From a virus, in IMG/VR virus record IMGVR_UViG_3300034066_001869, positions 1-51,578 of that record: a stretch of 51,578 bases of DNA; one strand, written 5' to 3'. The notes beneath the pieces are model-generated. The model worked only from the letters and a program-made list of their open reading frames with translations. It did not search any database and was not told the DNA's origin. Every line of letters begins with the position of its first letter. Within the stretch, counting starts at the first letter, position 1. Positions 1,788-31,808 of the stretch are shown here, piece after piece. Position numbers and translations under genes: made by a program.

Positions 1788-3904
1788 TAGTTAATTTTAC
1801 TTAAATACCAGTTACGAACAAATACATTACCAGAAGAGTTTTCAGGTTTAATTCTTCTTACGCTCCAGTCTCTGGCAAATCCGTTATCATTCTCTAATCC
1901 AACTGGCCTATCTGCATAATACCAAGTAAACCATACCTTTAGATTCTTGTCGTCAACTCTCTCCTTTTTAGACACAAAACCAGGCACTGTTAATCCGCTA
2001 GCCGTTAGATTTCTATTAACATCTATTTCTATATTAGTACCACCAGTTTGTACTATGGTGTCATCAGAGAATGTAATTAAATAATGTTTTTTATTTGTTT
2101 GGTTCAAAGTTTCAAATCCTGCAGTACCATTACCGGGATCAGTTAAACTTTGTGGGGTAATAATAATACTACCTGGATTTACTAGTTTTGATAGTGAGGT
2201 ATTTGTTGTATTTTGATCATCATCAAATACATGAATTATATCATTAGTAAATTGAACATTTTCACTATAAGAAGTGTAGAACCACACTCTCATAGTATTT
2301 GTATTTACTTGTTCTTTTTTGAATACAGTGATATTAGTATTCAATCCACCAGCAGTTACATTCTGCCCTACAGTAACCCCTATATTTTGCGCGCCCGGAG
2401 TTACCTGAGTTCCATCAGTAAATTGGACAGTGTAATATCTCCTATCTAAGGTCCCAAGATTGGTATTAGATTGCGGATTTGTCTCATTAAACGGACTATG
2501 GTAATCATCATCAAGATTCTGAGGCGTTACGATAATTCCATTGCCAGATATCAACGATGTTGTTGTATAAAAGTCATCATTGAAAAGATGTAAGACAGAG
2601 TATTCTGAACTTATAGTCCCGAGTTGTTGGCTCGGTGGAATAGCTCCAGCAACACCTCTAAAACTTGAACTACACACCGGATCTGAAAAAGTAGTCTTAG
2701 AAACTTTTAAAGATGGGATTCTAAATCTGATTTTTTGTGAATGGTTTTTATAATTTCCTATACAGTTCCCTACTATTCCAACCTGGGTTGAGTCAGGGAT
2801 CCACACATTTGCTTTTAGAGCAGAGGTACAAACAGCCCCAACCGACGAAATGGCATTTCTTACTCCAATAACTTCTACGGTGACATATTGATCATCATAA
2901 CTTCCACCGCCACCATCTTCATATTGCCATTGCACACGGTCCCCGCCATTTTTTGATATGGCTACTCCAGTATTGCAATACGGCCAAGGACCAAAACTTT
3001 CTATACCAGATGGTACACAGACACAAGTCTCAACACAATTCCCTTCTTCATCACAAGTTGTAGTGCATTGTTTTGAGTAGAGTTGGCGGGTAGGGGCCGG
3101 ACCAGGAATAGAACTATGATTGAATACATAGTTATTATTTCCGCCATCTATATTATACACGTAGAATACATTAGTACCCGTGATATTTGAATTAGAATAT
3201 GCCCCTTTGGAGTATGGTGCCCCGCCGGTATCAGGACTAATATCCGAACAATTAGGAATATTAAAATTGAAACTTTGTGTCCAGGCCGCATCTACCTGAT
3301 GAGTTATTTTTAAACTCACAAGTTTATTTATGTAATTTTTTAGATTAAGAGTAATCTGATTTTGTCCAGTTATGGATATCTGTAATCCATCAGACGAGGA
3401 AATACCACTAGGAGGAGACCCACAAGATGGAGGAACATTGGGATCTGACCAAGGACCTGGGGGGCAATCTAACGGGGGAGCAGGAGTAAAACCACCACCT
3501 GGAGGAACTACTGGAGGAGGAGTGGCAGAGAAAGGAACATTTTCTAATATTGATAGAGTTATAGTAGCATTTGCATCACTACCATCAGCATCTAAAAATA
3601 TTATTTTTTTATCACTTTGCTTTACTACATTTAAAGATGTGCCTTGAGACTGATAATTAATGCTTACTTCTGTTGCACCGCTTTGTTGCCCGGAAATATT
3701 AAATGTACGATCTGCATTCCCAGACTCATTACTATCATCTCTGGACCATTCTACGGTCCTATTATCTGCTGAAAATGAGAGACTTTTTAAAGCAATGCCA
3801 TAAGTAGCTGCGCTATCATTCCAACTAATATCCATCCGTAATTTTACGTACTGGATACCAGCATCAACTTTGATGTTACCAGAAGTTGTAAACTTTGCAG
3901 ACAT
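1787..3904 (-). CDS. Putative virion structural / fibre protein with internal duplication
   Basis: 705 residues, beta-rich and rich in Asn, Thr, Ser and Gly. The N-terminal module (1-125) is followed by a Pro-rich linker (about 126-166), a middle domain with a Cys cluster CDEEGNCVETCVC (284-296), and two tandem copies of a module of about 115 residues (435-551 and 554-667). The copies share the order 'HLFNDD/HVFDDD', 'IIVTPQ/IIITPQ', 'YYTVQFTDGT/HYLITFSDDT', 'NVTAGGL/NLTASGL' and 'MRVWFYTSY/LKVWFTWYY'. A good Shine-Dalgarno (GGAG at 3914-3917) lies inside the end of the upstream S74 fibre gene, four bases away. The stop overlaps the next ATG. Co-transcription with the S74 fibre suggests a distal fibre or adhesin part. 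I recognise no named family. Confidence 0.75.
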   Translation of the reverse strand: MSAKFTTSGNIKVDAGIQYVKLRMDISWNDSAATYGIALKSLSFSADNRTVEWSRDDSNESGNADRTFNISGQQSGATEVSINYQSQGTSLNVVKQSDKKIIFLDADGSDANATITLSILENVPFSATPPPVVPPGGGFTPAPPLDCPPGPWSDPNVPPSCGSPPSGISSSDGLQISITGQNQITLNLKNYINKLVSLKITHQVDAAWTQSFNFNIPNCSDISPDTGGAPYSKGAYSNSNITGTNVFYVYNIDGGNNNYVFNHSSIPGPAPTRQLYSKQCTTTCDEEGNCVETCVCVPSGIESFGPWPYCNTGVAISKNGGDRVQWQYEDGGGGSYDDQYVTVEVIGVRNAISSVGAVCTSALKANVWIPDSTQVGIVGNCIGNYKNHSQKIRFRIPSLKVSKTTFSDPVCSSSFRGVAGAIPPSQQLGTISSEYSVLHLFNDDFYTTTSLISGNGIIVTPQNLDDDYHSPFNETNPQSNTNLGTLDRRYYTVQFTDGTQVTPGAQNIGVTVGQNVTAGGLNTNITVFKKEQVNTNTMRVWFYTSYSENVQFTNDIIHVFDDDQNTTNTSLSKLVNPGSIIITPQSLTDPGNGTAGFETLNQTNKKHYLITFSDDTIVQTGGTNIEIDVNRNLTASGLTVPGFVSKKERVDDKNLKVWFTWYYADRPVGLENDNGFARDWSVRRIKPENSSGNVFVRNWYLSKIN

Positions 3905-19049: not shown

Positions 19050-19285
19050 TGGATATAGATTTTTCATCCCTAGGACTAGGGAGCACAATCAATTCTGGAA
19101 TATCAAATGGTACCCCAGTATCTGTAGGGAATGTTTCTCCTACATTTGACTCCATTGAAAAAGTATTTGCTCCAGAGATTAATAGAGAGATATCAATTTC
19201 AACCAATCCAGCCATAGATGGTTGGTTAACTGGTAGAAGACCAGCATTTGGACAGATGTATCCACGCGGACTATATAATCAATAA
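19049..19285 (+). CDS. Small protein coupled to the OB-fold hub
   Basis: 78 residues, Ser-, Gly-, Ile- and Pro-rich, ending FGQMYPRGLYNQ. Both ends overlap neighbours (TGATG upstream, TAATG downstream), which is strong support for real, coupled translation despite its size. I recognise no family; it lacks the Cys/His pattern of spike-tip PAAR proteins. A small baseplate or spike accessory is possible given its place directly before the hub gene. Confidence 0.65.
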   Translation: MDIDFSSLGLGSTINSGISNGTPVSVGNVSPTFDSIEKVFAPEINREISISTNPAIDGWLTGRRPAFGQMYPRGLYNQ

Positions 19286-22233
19286 TGGGATTTTTTGACG
19301 ACCTACAGACAATGAAAGAACTTAGCCTCCGCACCTCGGAGGCTATAGGAGGGCCTTTTGGTGATCCATTTAATGAGATTGGGACTATTGTCTCTGTGTC
19401 AGATCCTAAAAGACTTGGGAGAGTTAAGGTACTTTACTCGGGGATTACGAGTGACTGGGTATATGTACAAGGTAGTCATAAGGGCCAACTAAGTTCGCAA
19501 TATATAGGTGCTCCTTGCCTCCTTTCCAAAGCCGGGGGTAATACTAACGATGCTTTTGTAAGTCAGATATTTAATAAAGATCCTAGAGGGAATGGTGTAG
19601 GTACACCTATCCAACTTACAGTACTTGGTGAGCAGATGGAAGCAGGGAGTATTGCCTCCGATCCCGGTATGAGATGTAATGAGGACAATGCCGGACGGAT
19701 GTATCTCCTTGAGAATGAGATAAATCAAGACGTTATTATTTGCCTCAGAAGAAATAATACCCAAGAAGGTGGGGATCCGATCTATGCATGGAAGTCCCTT
19801 ACCCACGGCAAACTAGTTGAGAAAGGATTTGATCCTGGGGTGGTGGAATCACAGATAAATACTAATCTTTCCAAAAAGTCTGGAATGCCTAAATGCTCTC
19901 AGGCACTTGAGGGGGAGATAAGAGAGTTTGCGGAGGATCGGAAGTTTCGCTCGACGATGCTGATGTGCCGTAGGGATGAGAATGGTGATTTCTCATGGGG
20001 AGCTGTATCTTCACCCCCAGTGGTATTTCGGACAACTCTTCCGAAATGCACAGAAAAAAACCATGGTATGGAGACCGTGGTTGACTGGGGATTGGATTCG
20101 GAACTAGTAATTTGTCTTAGATACCAAAAACAAATGAAGTGGGTAAGTTCTGGATCTAGAAAACCCATTGAATTCTATTCTGCTGACAAACCTCCAACAA
20201 GAAAGGAATTTCTAGACTCTAAGAAACCCATTGAAGCTTTAACGCAAAAAGCATCGCCATCCTCCCAAGATTTTGTTGGTAAAGCAGGTAAAGAAATCTT
20301 AAAGGCTGCCGGAAGTGCAGTGGCACCTATTGCTTCAGATCCAGCTCTCAAAGCCGCAATGATCGCAGCAAATGCTCTCCCAGGCCAATTTAACGGGGCG
20401 GATATGCTTAGCAACCTTGCGAAGATTGCGATTGCAAACAACTCCAATCAGTCCATTGCCGCATTAACTTCACAGATAACCAACGCCATAAATAAAGGTG
20501 GTGTTATTGATGATGAATTGGCAGCGATTCTTCGTACTGCTGGAGGAGCGGGGGATGTACTTGCTAGGGGTATACGAAATAATACTCTTGACTCTGCTCT
20601 GCAAATCATAGGCAAGAACTCTTTCAACCAAGCGTTCAATGGCCTACCTTCTCAGGTGGCCGGAGTATATTCAGCATATATGGCCGGTGGAGCATTGGGT
20701 GCCATTGATAGTGCTGCAATTTTTGGTCTTTCCCAACTCCCTCCAGAGGTAGCACAATTCGTATCTCCTGTATGGGATATTGGTAAAGATGTCCTAAATG
20801 GTCAACCTCTCTCCATCAATAATATTATCGGTAGTGCCGTTGGGGCATTGGATCAATCCCTGCCAGATTCTATTAATCAGATTATCTCTACAGCAGGTGG
20901 GATTGGTGGTCTTACTGACTTAGTTTCTGGGGATATTTTAGGGAAACTTTCTGGCGGGGACTTGGGTGAGATTGCTCAGATGGTTACTAATTTTGCTAAT
21001 CTACCGGGCATTCCTAACCTTGGTGGGTTACAGGGTGTACCACAATTAGCTACCTCAGCGCTCCAGTTAGTTGGGTTGGGTGGACAATTCACATCATTCT
21101 TAGGACCAGCAGGTTTAGGTCTGAGCGCATTTTCTGCTCTTACCGGTATTAATCCGGTCTCATCTATCCTTGGTGGGATTCCTGGTCTTGGGGGACTATT
21201 CGGTGGGGGTGGATTGGATTGCCCCTGTGATCCTAAATGCAGAAAAACAGAACATGGAGTAGATTCTGATGGTAATAGACTCCTTGATCCATGTGGGAGC
21301 GTTGTTGCTACTAGCAATAGTTCTTATTCTCCTAAAGGAGATCCTACAGATAACAATAACAATCCCTTATCAGAAATTCTTGATTTAATTCCAACAAAAG
21401 TAGGAGAAGATCTATGTTCTTCCGGCGGAAATCAATGGGATCTAACTCAATTAATTACTGGGGTTAAAAGACTCTCTGAGATGGCCGATAGAATAGAGGG
21501 CGCTAAACATGCCGATTGGCCGGAACTTTGGTCTGAATTAACATATACCTTTGAAGCAATAGAAAAGGCGTTTAAGCAAACGGACAATAATATTACAAAA
21601 GTAGAGTCCATCGAAAGAAAACTTATAGATGCTCAATATCGACTCATTAATAAGTTAATGGTAGGAAATACTTCTTTCTTCTCTCAGACACTTCTTAGTA
21701 TTATTGAAACATCAAAGGCTATTAAAGATACATATAACTATGTAAAAAGACTCGATCATACAAAAGATGGCGGGAGGGTAGGTGTAGTCCCTACAGATAG
21801 CTTAGTCAACGTATTTAGAAACATAACTAAAATTGCGAAATTAAATTCTGCATCTAAAAAAGAAGCGTTATTTATTACAAATAATTTCCTTAAAACAGCA
21901 CACTCAGAATGGAAAGATTTAGAACCGTCAAAGGACCTTATAGATCTAGCAGATTTTATTCTTGGATTAATACCAAAAGATCTTCCACCAACATTTGGAA
22001 AATGTAAGACAAAAAGGGATAAGAATAAAGTGCTTAAAGATTCTTTATCTGCAAAAATAAATTCGCCAGAACCACCAGAACCATCGTCTCTATTAGGCAA
22101 TTCTCTACCTACTAAGTATTTCGATCTGCCAAACTCTGACTTATCACCAGATAACCAACAACAAATCTCATCTCTCTTAGACCAGATAAATTATGAACAA
22201 GGTAGAAGCCGCGAAGGAAAGGCAGATTGTTAA
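19285..22233 (+). CDS. OB-fold baseplate spike/hub protein (gp5/VgrG N-terminal type) with Cys repeats
   Basis: 982 residues. Residues 23-100 (GPFGDPFNEIGTIVSVSDP, then GRVKVLYSGITSDWVYVQ, and GAPCLLSKAGGNTNDAFVSQ) match the OB-fold found at the start of contractile-tail spike proteins. Three diverged repeats follow, each with a Cys pair 22-24 residues apart and a Trp near the end: 129-172 (C131, C153), 202-243 (C204, C228) and 253-290 (C255, C277). A long Ala/Gly-rich middle (about 330-640) leads to a Cys-rich knot (CPCDPKC near 647-653 and a further Cys near 670). The C-terminal 280 residues are helical. It starts by TAATG overlap with the small gene. It probably sits at the tail axis; the long middle may contact the baseplate. 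Confidence 0.78.
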   Translation: MGFFDDLQTMKELSLRTSEAIGGPFGDPFNEIGTIVSVSDPKRLGRVKVLYSGITSDWVYVQGSHKGQLSSQYIGAPCLLSKAGGNTNDAFVSQIFNKDPRGNGVGTPIQLTVLGEQMEAGSIASDPGMRCNEDNAGRMYLLENEINQDVIICLRRNNTQEGGDPIYAWKSLTHGKLVEKGFDPGVVESQINTNLSKKSGMPKCSQALEGEIREFAEDRKFRSTMLMCRRDENGDFSWGAVSSPPVVFRTTLPKCTEKNHGMETVVDWGLDSELVICLRYQKQMKWVSSGSRKPIEFYSADKPPTRKEFLDSKKPIEALTQKASPSSQDFVGKAGKEILKAAGSAVAPIASDPALKAAMIAANALPGQFNGADMLSNLAKIAIANNSNQSIAALTSQITNAINKGGVIDDELAAILRTAGGAGDVLARGIRNNTLDSALQIIGKNSFNQAFNGLPSQVAGVYSAYMAGGALGAIDSAAIFGLSQLPPEVAQFVSPVWDIGKDVLNGQPLSINNIIGSAVGALDQSLPDSINQIISTAGGIGGLTDLVSGDILGKLSGGDLGEIAQMVTNFANLPGIPNLGGLQGVPQLATSALQLVGLGGQFTSFLGPAGLGLSAFSALTGINPVSSILGGIPGLGGLFGGGGLDCPCDPKCRKTEHGVDSDGNRLLDPCGSVVATSNSSYSPKGDPTDNNNNPLSEILDLIPTKVGEDLCSSGGNQWDLTQLITGVKRLSEMADRIEGAKHADWPELWSELTYTFEAIEKAFKQTDNNITKVESIERKLIDAQYRLINKLMVGNTSFFSQTLLSIIETSKAIKDTYNYVKRLDHTKDGGRVGVVPTDSLVNVFRNITKIAKLNSASKKEALFITNNFLKTAHSEWKDLEPSKDLIDLADFILGLIPKDLPPTFGKCKTKRDKNKVLKDSLSAKINSPEPPEPSSLLGNSLPTKYFDLPNSDLSPDNQQQISSLLDQINYEQGRSREGKADC

Positions 22234-23852: not shown

Positions 23853-24167
23853 ATGACAGATCAACAATTTAAATATAGAGTTGTATTTTTTCACCAACCA
23901 GGTTGCGCGGCATGCAATGCTATGAAACCTGTATGGGCAGAAACGGCTAACATAATCGCTGAAGAGTACCCACATTATTCAGTGGGATTTGGGGAATGGG
24001 ACGTAACATCAGATAACTGGGCATTTTGTGACCAGATTGAATGTGATGGTACCCCGAACTTTGCTGTTTTTGATCGTGATGCTCAACTCTTAGGATTAAA
24101 CATAGACGGTATTTTAGCTCAGTCTCAACTCAAAGATTTTATCATAGGAGCCATCGAAAAAGCATGA
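23853..24167 (+). CDS. Thioredoxin-like protein
   Basis: 104 residues from the ATG at 23853. This start has an upstream AGGA and leaves room for the extended -10 sequence; an in-frame ATG at 23706 would overlap the terminase gene by about 100 bases and add an unrelated N-terminus. The fold is thioredoxin: VVFFHQPGCAACNAMKPVW with the active-site pair C18-A-A-C21, a 'FGEWDVTSDNW' strand region, and the cis-Pro loop DGTPNFAVFD. It could reduce disulfides of phage or host enzymes, for example ribonucleotide reductase, or assist polymerase as T7's borrowed thioredoxin does; the partner is not visible. Its stop overlaps the sigma-factor start (ATGA). Confidence 0.85.
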   Translation: MTDQQFKYRVVFFHQPGCAACNAMKPVWAETANIIAEEYPHYSVGFGEWDVTSDNWAFCDQIECDGTPNFAVFDRDAQLLGLNIDGILAQSQLKDFIIGAIEKA

Positions 24168-24949
24168 CTGTAGAACAAGATAAGCAATCACGTCGTAAAT
24201 CACGTAGGCAAAAATCAGAACGAGATGAGCAAATCATCTCCCAAATGTGGAAGGCCTCGCAGGTAGCGAAAAAAATCTCAAGTTTTACAGGGCTTCCTTA
24301 TGAAGAACTTAGAGACGCTGCCCTTGAGTATATTGTAAAAATATACGATTCTTGGGATCAGAGTAAAGGTGCAAATTTTTCTACCTGGGTGAATAGATGT
24401 TTACAGTTTCATATGCTAAATTATCTCAGAGATAATTCTAGATTGGTGAAGATCCCCAGATCATATTCTGATCTTTATTTAAAGATTAGGAAATATACAA
24501 CTACTGATCCAGATATTACCGATGAGCAGATCGCCGAAAAAATCCAGGTATCTGTTAAAAAAATCCGTGCAGTACGTCAAGCATTTGCAATGAGTTTTTC
24601 CCAGGTTACTGAATACTCGAACATCATTGAACCAGAGTATGAATCAGAGATGACAATGGGGGACTTTATGATGAGCCATCGTGACCTTCTCCATAAAATC
24701 ACTGATCTAGACCCAGTTGATGAAACTTTTCTTACTGACTATTTAGTTAAAAAACGTTCTGTATCTACCTTGGTTAGAAAGAATCCTCATCTTAAAAATG
24801 CTGATGATATCAAGAAATATTCAGAACAACTTATCGAATTTATACTATGCGACGCGTCATATCCATCCAAGGAAACGAATACACGAAGGGAGGGTTCGAA
24901 AAAAAGTGGACAGAAGTTGTCCATGGAACAGAATCTAACTACTTTGTAA
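24164..24949 (+). CDS. Phage RNA polymerase sigma factor
   Basis: 261 residues. Residues 40-100 match sigma-70 region 2: LPYEELRDAALEYIVKIYDS, then WDQSKGANFSTWVNRCLQF, HMLNYLRDNSRLVKIPRS, the last being the start of region 3. Residues 101-150 (DEQIAEKIQVSVKKIRAVRQ) look like a region-3 helix-turn-helix. A short divergent region-4-like part covers about 178-228. It would redirect host RNA polymerase to phage promoters, like the late sigma factors of cyanophages and T4 gp55. The last 34 residues (from about 24847) are polar and are also read in another frame as the start of the next gene. The recurrent GTTTAAAG motif in this window is a candidate target, by inference. Confidence 0.85.
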   Translation: MTVEQDKQSRRKSRRQKSERDEQIISQMWKASQVAKKISSFTGLPYEELRDAALEYIVKIYDSWDQSKGANFSTWVNRCLQFHMLNYLRDNSRLVKIPRSYSDLYLKIRKYTTTDPDITDEQIAEKIQVSVKKIRAVRQAFAMSFSQVTEYSNIIEPEYESEMTMGDFMMSHRDLLHKITDLDPVDETFLTDYLVKKRSVSTLVRKNPHLKNADDIKKYSEQLIEFILCDASYPSKETNTRREGSKKSGQKLSMEQNLTTL

Positions 24950-29269: not shown

Positions 29270-29992
29270 TCAAGATACAGAGGTTACAATAGCCATTGCA
29301 AGCGTATCGCCATTATCCGCTCCGGCAGATGTGATTGAAACAATCTGATCTACCTTAAATCCAGCGCCGCCATTGGTAATAGCATCGATTGTGATTACTT
29401 CACCAGTAGCAATAGACACTGTTCCCGCACCGGCAGTATAACCAGCGGGGTTGGTGGATTCGGTAGAATTGAATGCTACGGTAATCTCGCCATCTGCCGT
29501 TCCATCCAGAGTATCAGTGTATCCACTTCCTCCGTCAAGGAGTTCAAGGGTTACAATTGTTCCTACAGGGGCCTGAGGAGCAGGAACTACTTCAGCGATG
29601 ATTGAGGAGATAGTTTCAGCAAGGTTGAAGGTGGCTACCATGAAATGGAAATCACCATCGCCTGTGATGCCAACATAACGAGTGATGTTAACGAGTTGGT
29701 CGTTGAGTGCGGTTTTGTCAGCAGCAGGGACGTTTGCATTTGCTGCAAGAGCACCTACAACAAGCTCTAGGGTCGCATAGGCAAACTTCTTGGCCTCAAA
29801 ACCCATGCTAGGGCCACAAGCCACGAAGGCATTTTTAGCAGCAGTACGAGCAGTAGGAGTATTTGATCCTGCGTTATACGAAGATACGAGACTCGAACCG
29901 ATAGCTTCGGTTAGAAACTCTTGAAAGGAGATTTTATATTCAAACTCCATGCCGATCTTACGGTGAAGACCAGTGTTAAATACGGTTGCCAT
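29270..29992 (-). CDS. Putative structural protein with GGSGY-type module
   Basis: 240 residues. Residues 1-135 are helical (KISFQEFLTEAIGSSLVSSY; FAYATLELVVGALAAN), while 140-240 are a beta module with LLDGGSGYTDTLDGTADG and ITNGGAGFKVDQIVSI, small-residue turns that recur in the 587-residue protein at 36114-37877. No enzyme motif is visible. It is preceded by a GTTTAAAG motif and lacks a Shine-Dalgarno sequence. It lies 13 bases before the hub/lysin gene, so it could be a tail or hub structural component; this is inferred from position. Confidence 0.65.
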   Translation of the reverse strand: MATVFNTGLHRKIGMEFEYKISFQEFLTEAIGSSLVSSYNAGSNTPTARTAAKNAFVACGPSMGFEAKKFAYATLELVVGALAANANVPAADKTALNDQLVNITRYVGITGDGDFHFMVATFNLAETISSIIAEVVPAPQAPVGTIVTLELLDGGSGYTDTLDGTADGEITVAFNSTESTNPAGYTAGAGTVSIATGEVITIDAITNGGAGFKVDQIVSITSAGADNGDTLAMAIVTSVS

Positions 29993-30024: not shown

Positions 30025-30032
30025 CTTTAAAC
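30025..30032 (-). promoter_or_regulatory. GTTTAAAG promoter-like motif
   Basis: An exact minus-strand GTTTAAAG followed by ATTATTG, 32 bases before the ATG at 29992; it overlaps the end of the kinase gene. It would start transcription of the 240-residue protein, hub/lysin and lysine-tail genes. Confidence 0.5.
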
Positions 30033-30590
30033 TACGTCGGCCAAAGAGAAAGACTTGTCAGACGGGGAGAGAATGGTGATGTCAGAAAGAAGAGAACGAT
30101 ATGCGAGATAATCTTTCATATATTCATAGTATTCCTCATGCTCTTTTTCTCGGGCTTGAAGTTGCATATTCATAAAGTAATCAGAGCAACCAGGATATAA
30201 CTCATTGATCTCGATGATATGCAATGGAAGACTCCATTCCCAGTCCCTCTCAATCAAAAATACTTTGATCAGTGAGCTATAAGAGGCGAAGAATGATTCC
30301 GCGCTATTGGCCCATTCTTCAGAGATATCGATATGACGTCGGAATTTCTCATAAAAACAAACTTCGGAAAATCCACGATCACAGAGAACAACCTGGGCCT
30401 GCTCCTCAAGTGCGGCCTGAAACGGATCAAGGTATTGTTGGATGGGGCTATGATGGTTAGGTTGAGGACCAGAGAAATGGAGAGAACGAACACAAATGTC
30501 CCTTTCTACGAGATCTTTATACGTGTTTTCTACAGTAGTAGATTTTCCAACTCGATCTGCTCCAAGTACTACGATGGTGGCTGGATACAT
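30027..30590 (-). CDS. P-loop nucleotide kinase (thymidylate-kinase-like)
   Basis: 187 residues. The N-terminus IVVLGADRVGKSTTVENTY carries a Walker A of the G-x-D-x-x-GKST form typical of thymidylate kinases. VVLCDRGFSEVCFYEKFR (about 67-84) has the Asp-Arg pair that binds the nucleoside monophosphate, and IKVFLIERDWEW gives a third strand. Length is close to phage dNMP kinases, but the lid region is poorly defined, so the substrate (dTMP, another dNMP, or polynucleotide) is open. It probably raises dNTP supply during phage replication. It is transcribed divergently from the fibre gene at 30732, with a TATAAT box upstream, unlike the structural genes' motif. Confidence 0.8.
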   Translation of the reverse strand: MYPATIVVLGADRVGKSTTVENTYKDLVERDICVRSLHFSGPQPNHHSPIQQYLDPFQAALEEQAQVVLCDRGFSEVCFYEKFRRHIDISEEWANSAESFFASYSSLIKVFLIERDWEWSLPLHIIEINELYPGCSDYFMNMQLQAREKEHEEYYEYMKDYLAYRSLLSDITILSPSDKSFSLADVV

Positions 30591-30619
30591 GCTTCTCTGT
30601 GATTTTACTAGACAAGTAT

Positions 30620-30625
30620 ATTATA
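30620..30625 (-). promoter_or_regulatory. Host-type -10 box for the kinase gene
   Basis: On the minus strand GATATAATATAC lies about 30 bases before the kinase ATG. TATAAT fits a bacterial -10; no good -35 is visible at the usual spacing. This suggests early or middle expression by host polymerase. Confidence 0.45.
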
Positions 30626-30635
30626 TCACATGGTT

Positions 30636-30692
30636 AAAAGTAAAAGTGAAAAGTAACAGTAAGTTTTCAACGTCAACGTCAACGTTAACTTC
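30636..30692. repeat. Two sets of tandem hexamers in a divergent control region
   Basis: The 141-base gap between divergent genes holds AAAAGT at 30636, 30642 and 30649 plus AACAGT at 30655, then AACGTC at 30669 and 30675, AACGTT at 30681 and AACTTC at 30687. The spacing is almost exactly six to seven bases. This looks like an array of binding sites rather than random AT-rich DNA. No protein is assigned. Confidence 0.5.
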
Positions 30693-30698
30693 GAAGTT
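30687..30698. promoter_or_regulatory. 12-base perfect palindrome, operator candidate
   Basis: AACTTCGAAGTT is a perfect palindrome. Its right end overlaps the GTTTAAAG motif at 30696-30703, so a protein bound here would cover the putative promoter. Confidence 0.45.
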
Positions 30699-30703
30699 TA
30701 AAG
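30696..30703 (+). promoter_or_regulatory. GTTTAAAG promoter-like motif
   Basis: Exact motif followed by AGTATTATATTAG, 28 bases before the ATG at 30732. This start does have an upstream AGGA. The palindrome at 30687-30698 overlaps it. Confidence 0.5.
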
Positions 30704-30731
30704 AGTATTATATTAGTTACCGAGCAGGAAT

Positions 30732-31808
30732 ATGCCCGCCACACCAGAACCTCCTTTTCATCGTTTCGGGGTCAGATTTACGTCTGACTCTACTCATGAT
30801 AAAAGTTATCTTCAAGAACTTTTAGATGAGGATGCAAACTCAATGTACAGAGGTGAGTTATTCATTAATGAATCTCTAGACCATATATACTATTCTGATA
30901 GTACTGGAGTTGTACGAAGATTAGGAGAACGTTCTATTCCAGCATATATTCTACCCGCCGCCACATCTAACATCCGTGGTGGAGTGAAGATTGGAACAGG
31001 GATAAATGTTACAGCTGATGGAACTATTAGTGTCTCAGGTGGTGGTGGAAATGCAAACACCGGAGATATTACATTTACCGACAATTATATTATTGGCACT
31101 GGTACTATAGGCGGAGGTTTTGGACTATTCTTTGCCCCCGGCCCAGATTTTATAGACCCCGATAACATAACCACCAACGGAACCCAATACGTCAGACTCC
31201 GTGCCGGGGATGATGCATCTCATATACATTTCGACACTGCCGATAGCAGTGCTTATGACTGGTACTTTGGAGACGATTCAAAATACGTAATGTTATCCAA
31301 GGAAGGTTCTGTAAGAATCCGAGCCGGTGGTAATTATGAAGATAAGTGGGTATTTAACTCTAGTGGGGTATTAAAACTCGCTGGGGGAAGTACTAATGAT
31401 GGCACCGGCCCTGGAACCTACCTAAGCTCCAAGGGTACATTAGCGAGGACTAACCAAGAAACGCAGATCACAATTTTCACTGCGAGTCAGGTATGGATGT
31501 CGACCGTAAAACTTCTCATACAGGCGGAGAGCACAGTAACTAATGGTGGGAATAATGGTTGGGATACACAGGCAACGGAATTATTAATTGTTAAGTCTGT
31601 AAAAGGACCATCTGTGCATTCCGTTGTTGTCTCTAACATAACCACAGGTGGAGTGGATAATGACGTCTTTATATCAAATTACTTTGTGTCTCTAGTAGAT
31701 GATAGAATTACTGTAAATGCGGAACCTATTGACGGGAGTTTAATCAATGGGTCTGACACAGGTGTTTACTACTCTGTCTCAGTGATAGAGATGTATAGTA
31801 ATGACTAG
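30732..31808 (+). CDS. Fibre-type structural protein
   Basis: 358 residues. The N-terminus has RGELFINESLDHIYYSDSTG, a GEL-x-IN attachment motif like that of the 183-residue protein at 8927-9478. Residues about 71-105 (ILPAATSN, GGVKIGTGINVTADGTISV) repeat the fibre motif seen twice in the 909-residue protein. The centre is Gly-rich, with YVRLRAGDDASHIHFDTAD resembling fibre knob regions. It ends in a beta domain. It is followed by a strong terminator at 31874-31911. It is probably an attached fibre or decoration protein, expressed by itself. Confidence 0.75.
   Translation: MPATPEPPFHRFGVRFTSDSTHDKSYLQELLDEDANSMYRGELFINESLDHIYYSDSTGVVRRLGERSIPAYILPAATSNIRGGVKIGTGINVTADGTISVSGGGGNANTGDITFTDNYIIGTGTIGGGFGLFFAPGPDFIDPDNITTNGTQYVRLRAGDDASHIHFDTADSSAYDWYFGDDSKYVMLSKEGSVRIRAGGNYEDKWVFNSSGVLKLAGGSTNDGTGPGTYLSSKGTLARTNQETQITIFTASQVWMSTVKLLIQAESTVTNGGNNGWDTQATELLIVKSVKGPSVHSVVVSNITTGGVDNDVFISNYFVSLVDDRITVNAEPIDGSLINGSDTGVYYSVSVIEMYSND

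Follow-up and report, generated by a model that had tools for sequence, protein, structure and literature searches.

The divergent gap and its contents

We studied a 51.6-kb IMG/VR virus fragment (hereafter the window, meaning the whole stretch of DNA analysed), which the protein matches around the site assign to a TIM5-like (Aurunvirus-related) cyanophage. A near-identity search of the phage records with the window gave no match. The gene order from the sigma factor to the terminase, kinase, virion gene, and PhoH is the same as in S-TIM5 (NC_019516.2), in the opposite orientation. Within this order, a kinase-like gene and a virion structural gene diverge from a gap of 141 bases (Table 1). The kinase protein is 54-56% identical to TIM5-group proteins, and its matches among the phage records were limited to S-TIM5, S-TIM54, S-TIM61, and S-TIM66. 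The length of the virion gene behind the putative late promoter varies, from 358 aa in the window to 190 aa in S-TIM5 and 115 aa at two related loci (L007 and L023).

Table 1. Positions of the gap features and of the related genes in the window
Feature	Position	Strand	Remarks
Sigma factor of the phage with regions 2 and 3, which may read GTTTAAAG	24164..24949	+	phrog_351, 1.4e-17; Sigma70_r2, 4e-5
Another GTTTAAAG copy, preceding the following virion gene at 29270-29992	30025..30032	-	
Small P-loop kinase-like gene, 187 aa, orthologue of S-TIM5 gp113	30027..30590	-	weak matches to phrog_761 and AAA_28
Putative host-type kinase promoter, extended -10 TGATATAAT	30620..30628	-	TGNTA[T/G]AAT in 14/14 relatives
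Repeat-rich spacer, 67 bp (hexamer arrays, 12-base palindrome)	30629..30695	none	fast evolving, missing in the S-TIM5 branch
Putative late promoter for the virion ('fibre') gene, octamer GTTTAAAG, 28 nt ahead of the ATG	30696..30703	+	
Virion-gene leader and start region, AT-rich	30704..30731	+	predicted start point about 30709-30711
Virion structural ('fibre') gene, 358 aa, at the position of gp114 in S-TIM5	30732..31808	+	synteny with NC_019516.2

A sequence-only reading of the gap had described four AAAAGT-type and four AACGTC-type hexamers. All of these are present, but the count of four requires mismatched copies in each family: AAAAGT occurs at 30636, 30642, and 30649, with AACAGT (30655) as the fourth of its type, and AACGTC occurs at 30669 and 30675, followed by AACGTT (30681) and by AACTTC (30687) as the fourth. 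TRF detected two neighbouring short arrays, at 30635-30662 and 30667-30689. The repeated-hexamer score of the gap was 19 against a mean of 4.98; none of 2000 dinucleotide shuffles reached it, and along the window, just 4 of 2572 sliding 141-base stretches did so. The same reading had reported a 12-base perfect palindrome overlapping a motif and a TATAAT on the other strand, and we found both: the palindrome, AACTTCGAAGTT, lies at 30687-30698 and shares its last 3 bases with GTTTAAAG, and the TATAAT (minus strand, 30625-30620) lies inside TGATATAAT. The palindrome is unexceptional, as such palindromes were found in 110 of the 2000 shuffles and occur 24 times in the window. Elsewhere in the window, a perfect hairpin, TAGCCTCCGCACCTCGGAGGCTA, is located at 19323 within a coding frame (19285-22233), and a near-identical copy exists at 113237 of a relative, G011.

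Conservation of the two words among relatives

Relatives were gathered in two ways, with the kinase gene plus its upstream DNA and with PhoH plus its upstream DNA, and conservation was scored on 14 TIM5-like loci. The gap of every scored locus contains CTTTAAAC, which is GTTTAAAG read on the virion-gene strand, and the extended -10 on the kinase strand is kept in all 14 as well. The distance between the two words is 12-13 bp in the S-TIM5 branch and 66-120 bp in the branch of the window (67 bp in the window, 73 in L004, 72 in L007, 66 in L010, and 120 in L014). In the gp113/gp114 gap of S-TIM5 (NC_019516.2, 104556-104637), the same genes diverge and the same two words are present, but the words are 12 bp apart, without the 67-bp repeat-rich spacer that separates them in the window.

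One relative, L004, has a kinase and a sigma factor that are 97% and 100% identical, respectively, to those of the window. The kinase genes of the two share 93% identity, whereas their spacers share 72% over the aligned bases, with many gaps. The L004 spacer has no excess of repeated hexamers, and the repeat units vary from relative to relative. Because the L004 spacer is largely different despite the near-identical kinase and sigma factor, the hexamers and the palindrome are not the conserved part of the gap. The sequence-only reading had itself named their lack of conservation in close relatives as grounds for refutation, and in near relatives they turned out to be largely replaced; they are absent from S-TIM5. 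That reading thus chose the right location and placed its emphasis on the wrong features, the repeats and the palindrome.

The spacers in the branch of the window have common features, namely a tendency to form inverted repeats and the word AAAGTAACAGTA, which is found in the window, L004, and L014. These features suggest that the spacers are probably one old insert that is quick to change. As a genome-wide element, AAAGTAACAGTA has one copy each in the window and G011. In L014 (2830-2950), the spacer contains a GC-rich hairpin, CTCCGCCCGCGCGCTCGCGCGCTCGCGGAG, immediately upstream of a near-consensus kinase promoter (TTGACA-17-TAGAAT).

Genome-wide placement of the words and the phage sigma factor

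S-TIM5 contains 36 copies of GTTTAAAG, 25 of which lie no more than 60 nt ahead of an annotated gene (1.17 expected). In G011, an independent near-complete relative of 159 kb with an identical sigma factor, 24 of 34 sites are upstream of genes taken as simple open-frame calls (1.02 expected). In both genomes, no other octamer is as strongly enriched before genes as GTTTAAAG; about one-third of the sites are not directly upstream of an annotated start. The distance to the start codon is about 26 nt, ranging from 18 to 49 nt in S-TIM5, where the octamer precedes 17 of the 47 virion genes and 8 of the 165 others (Fisher p 1.6e-7). Downstream of the octamer, the sequence is AT-rich (54 sites), and TA is favoured at 5-6 nt in the two lineages. 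Upstream, the logo is flat with no conserved -35, leaving a single 8-bp element as in a T4-type late promoter. Pairs of GTTTAAAG in opposite directions and 5 nt apart, putatively divergent late promoter pairs, were observed in G011 (C1, 54866-54930) and in S-TIM5 (57048-57061). A search of the accessible literature for GTTTAAAG, for GTTGAAAG (see below), and for S-TIM5 promoters or transcriptomes gave no description of this word, although one may exist among subscription papers.

The second independent class of enriched words in S-TIM5 is that of TGATATAAT, and the next independent octamer after GTTTAAAG is TGATATAA(T). TGATATAA and GATATAAT precede 10 genes each in S-TIM5, with 0.55 and 0.78 expected, and TATGATAG/ATGATAGA are enriched upstream of genes in G011. 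The bias of the extended -10 to non-virion genes is weak in S-TIM5 (27/165 versus 3/47, p 0.10). Taken with the conservation in relatives, the enrichment of both words upstream of genes throughout the genome supports the earlier proposal that the gap holds two opposed promoter types, a host-like and a phage-like one. On the kinase strand of the S-TIM5 branch, TTTAAA precedes TATAAT by 16 bp; the octamer could there double as a weak -35, with the two promoters competing, and the spacer of the window's branch could have separated them.

The candidate reader of GTTTAAAG is a phage sigma factor, which is present in 12 of 13 records, both lineages included; that it reads the octamer is suggested by this co-occurrence. 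Residues 11-150 match cyanobacterial SigA (4e-7); the match to the late-sigma family phrog_234 is weak (E 0.16), and the best match is phrog_351. In a model of low confidence (mean pLDDT 56.5, low beyond residue 142), of which residues 1-148 were compared, residues 14-92 align with SigE domain 2 (Z 11.6, 1.6 A). No match to region 4 was seen, which does not prove its absence. The lack of a detectable region 4 would suit an element read without a -35. The sigma gene overlaps the next open frame (24847-24949 in the window), and in several relatives (L119-L128), similarity continues beyond the sigma stop codon, as expected for a coding overlap.

At another set of loci (L030-L041), the equivalent gap lacks GTTTAAAG and instead contains GTTGAAAG, which differs by one letter, 21-28 nt before the virion gene. 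At several of these loci (about 2900-3300), the kinase gene is followed directly by PhoH. Three contigs of this sister lineage contain 40, 39, and 19 copies of GTTGAAAG versus 9, 3, and 3 of GTTTAAAG, and reversed-word controls for GTTGAAAG in the same contigs gave 4, 4, and 3; two contigs of the window's lineage contain 6 and 8 copies of GTTGAAAG versus 34 and 29 of GTTTAAAG. Among the GTTGAAAG sites examined in the sister lineage, 28 of 34 are within 60 nt before an open frame. The sister-lineage sigma factor is 37-42% identical to that of the window, and in the region 2.4 helix, adjoining the residues that read the -10, it has T/Q in place of Q81/H83. We consider the chances about even that TIM5-like cyanophages have their own class of late promoter, in which the octamer (GTTTAAAG versus GTTGAAAG) co-diverged with the phage sigma factor. 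Co-divergence is suggested rather than demonstrated, because the two lineages make up one contrast; the one-letter swap between them offers a natural test of joint change in a sigma factor and its promoter.

A probable early/late promoter pair and its known counterparts

Two words, their conservation, their genome-wide placement, and a lineage-specific change of the octamer are seen directly in the sequence. Both words are kept in 14/14 loci while the spacer changes or is absent, and we regard the gap as likely a divergent pair of an early promoter for the host sigma factor and a late promoter for the phage sigma factor; its activity, start points, sigma assignment, and timing are predictions. 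The pair would function much as the early and late promoters of T4 do, with a late octamer of its own. On the minus strand, the kinase gene would be transcribed, probably early, from TGATATAAT by the host RNA polymerase with the primary sigma factor. The plus-strand GTTTAAAG would serve as an 8-bp -10-type element without a -35, recognised by the host polymerase when it carries the phage sigma factor, and transcription of the virion gene would begin late, about 6 nt after the octamer, leaving about 20 nt of leader. The spacer with its repeats would be lineage-specific and fast-changing, setting the promoter distance and being dispensable for both promoters. The sequence-only reading had suggested a switch between early and late genes. 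Of that suggestion, an early/late arrangement is the reading we prefer; regulated switching at this particular site is at most a possibility, and both words are also present before many other genes.

We think it unlikely that GTTTAAAG is instead a -35 element, with a degenerate -10 further downstream and nearly leaderless messages. The GTTTAA of SigB-type promoters offers a parallel, the S-TIM54 annotation names the sigma gene SigF, and a TATTATA-like word occurs 12-17 nt downstream at some sites. However, the logo has no second element at a fixed distance, many sites are 18-26 nt from the start codon and leave little room, and sigma region 4, which is required for reading a -35, had no match. 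As for the repeats, the hexamer arrays and the palindrome could be operators through which a phage regulator toggles between the two promoters, but we judge this quite unlikely: their repeat content is far beyond chance, several relatives likewise have spacers rich in repeats or able to fold, and AAAGTAACAGTA is common to the spacers of the window, L004, and L014, and yet the repeat units differ among relatives, a relative as close as L004 lacks the hexamer excess, and S-TIM5 and its close relatives keep both promoters without the entire spacer.

That same absence in the S-TIM5 branch bears on the view that the spacer is an imperfect inverted repeat acting as a terminator to block antisense transcription into the kinase gene. 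Compared with shuffles, folding is better for the spacers of L004, L007, L010, and L014 (z -2.0, -3.1, -2.3, and -3.7), but not for the window spacer RNA (z -1.1), and a terminator scan gave no candidate site; we therefore hold this to be very unlikely. AT-rich repeats are frequent at replication origins, and an origin or a packaging site had been proposed for the gap. We found no support for either: cumulative GC skew is flat around 30.6 kb, the repeats are not conserved as iterons would be, and copies of both conserved words stand at gene starts throughout the genome, making this extremely improbable. The divergent promoter pair remains our preferred reading. The eye-catching repeats carry little meaning alone; what is of interest is the late word and how it changes between lineages.

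On the kinase side, the gap resembles the host sigma-70 extended -10 promoters of phage early genes in having TGNTATAAT, conserved in 14/14 relatives. At several S-TIM5 sites of the class, a full TTGACA is present 17 bp upstream, whereas a scan of the window found no good TTGACA-like -35 at 16-18 bp for the kinase -10. Extended -10 promoters can work without a -35.

TIM5-like cyanophages are a myovirus lineage apart from the T4-like cyanophages, and a late promoter word readable from the sequence would allow early and late genes to be sorted without transcripts. T4-type late promoters depend on gp33 and the sliding clamp gp45. In T4, they consist of an 8-bp box, TATAAATA, about one turn before the start, with AT-rich sequence downstream and no -35, and are read by gp55 (PMC2988020); in T4-like cyanophages, the late promoters are NATAAATA (PMC2984593). 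No TATAAATA was found 15-50 nt before open frames in S-TIM5 or G011. The putative late promoters of the TIM5-like phages are like those of T4 and the T4-like cyanophages in having an 8-bp element with no conserved -35, AT-rich sequence just downstream, tens of copies per genome, positions before virion genes, and a phage sigma factor gene nearby. Unlike in those phages, the octamer is GTTTAAAG or GTTGAAAG, and the sigma factor resembles regions 2-3 of cyanobacterial SigA and phrog_351.
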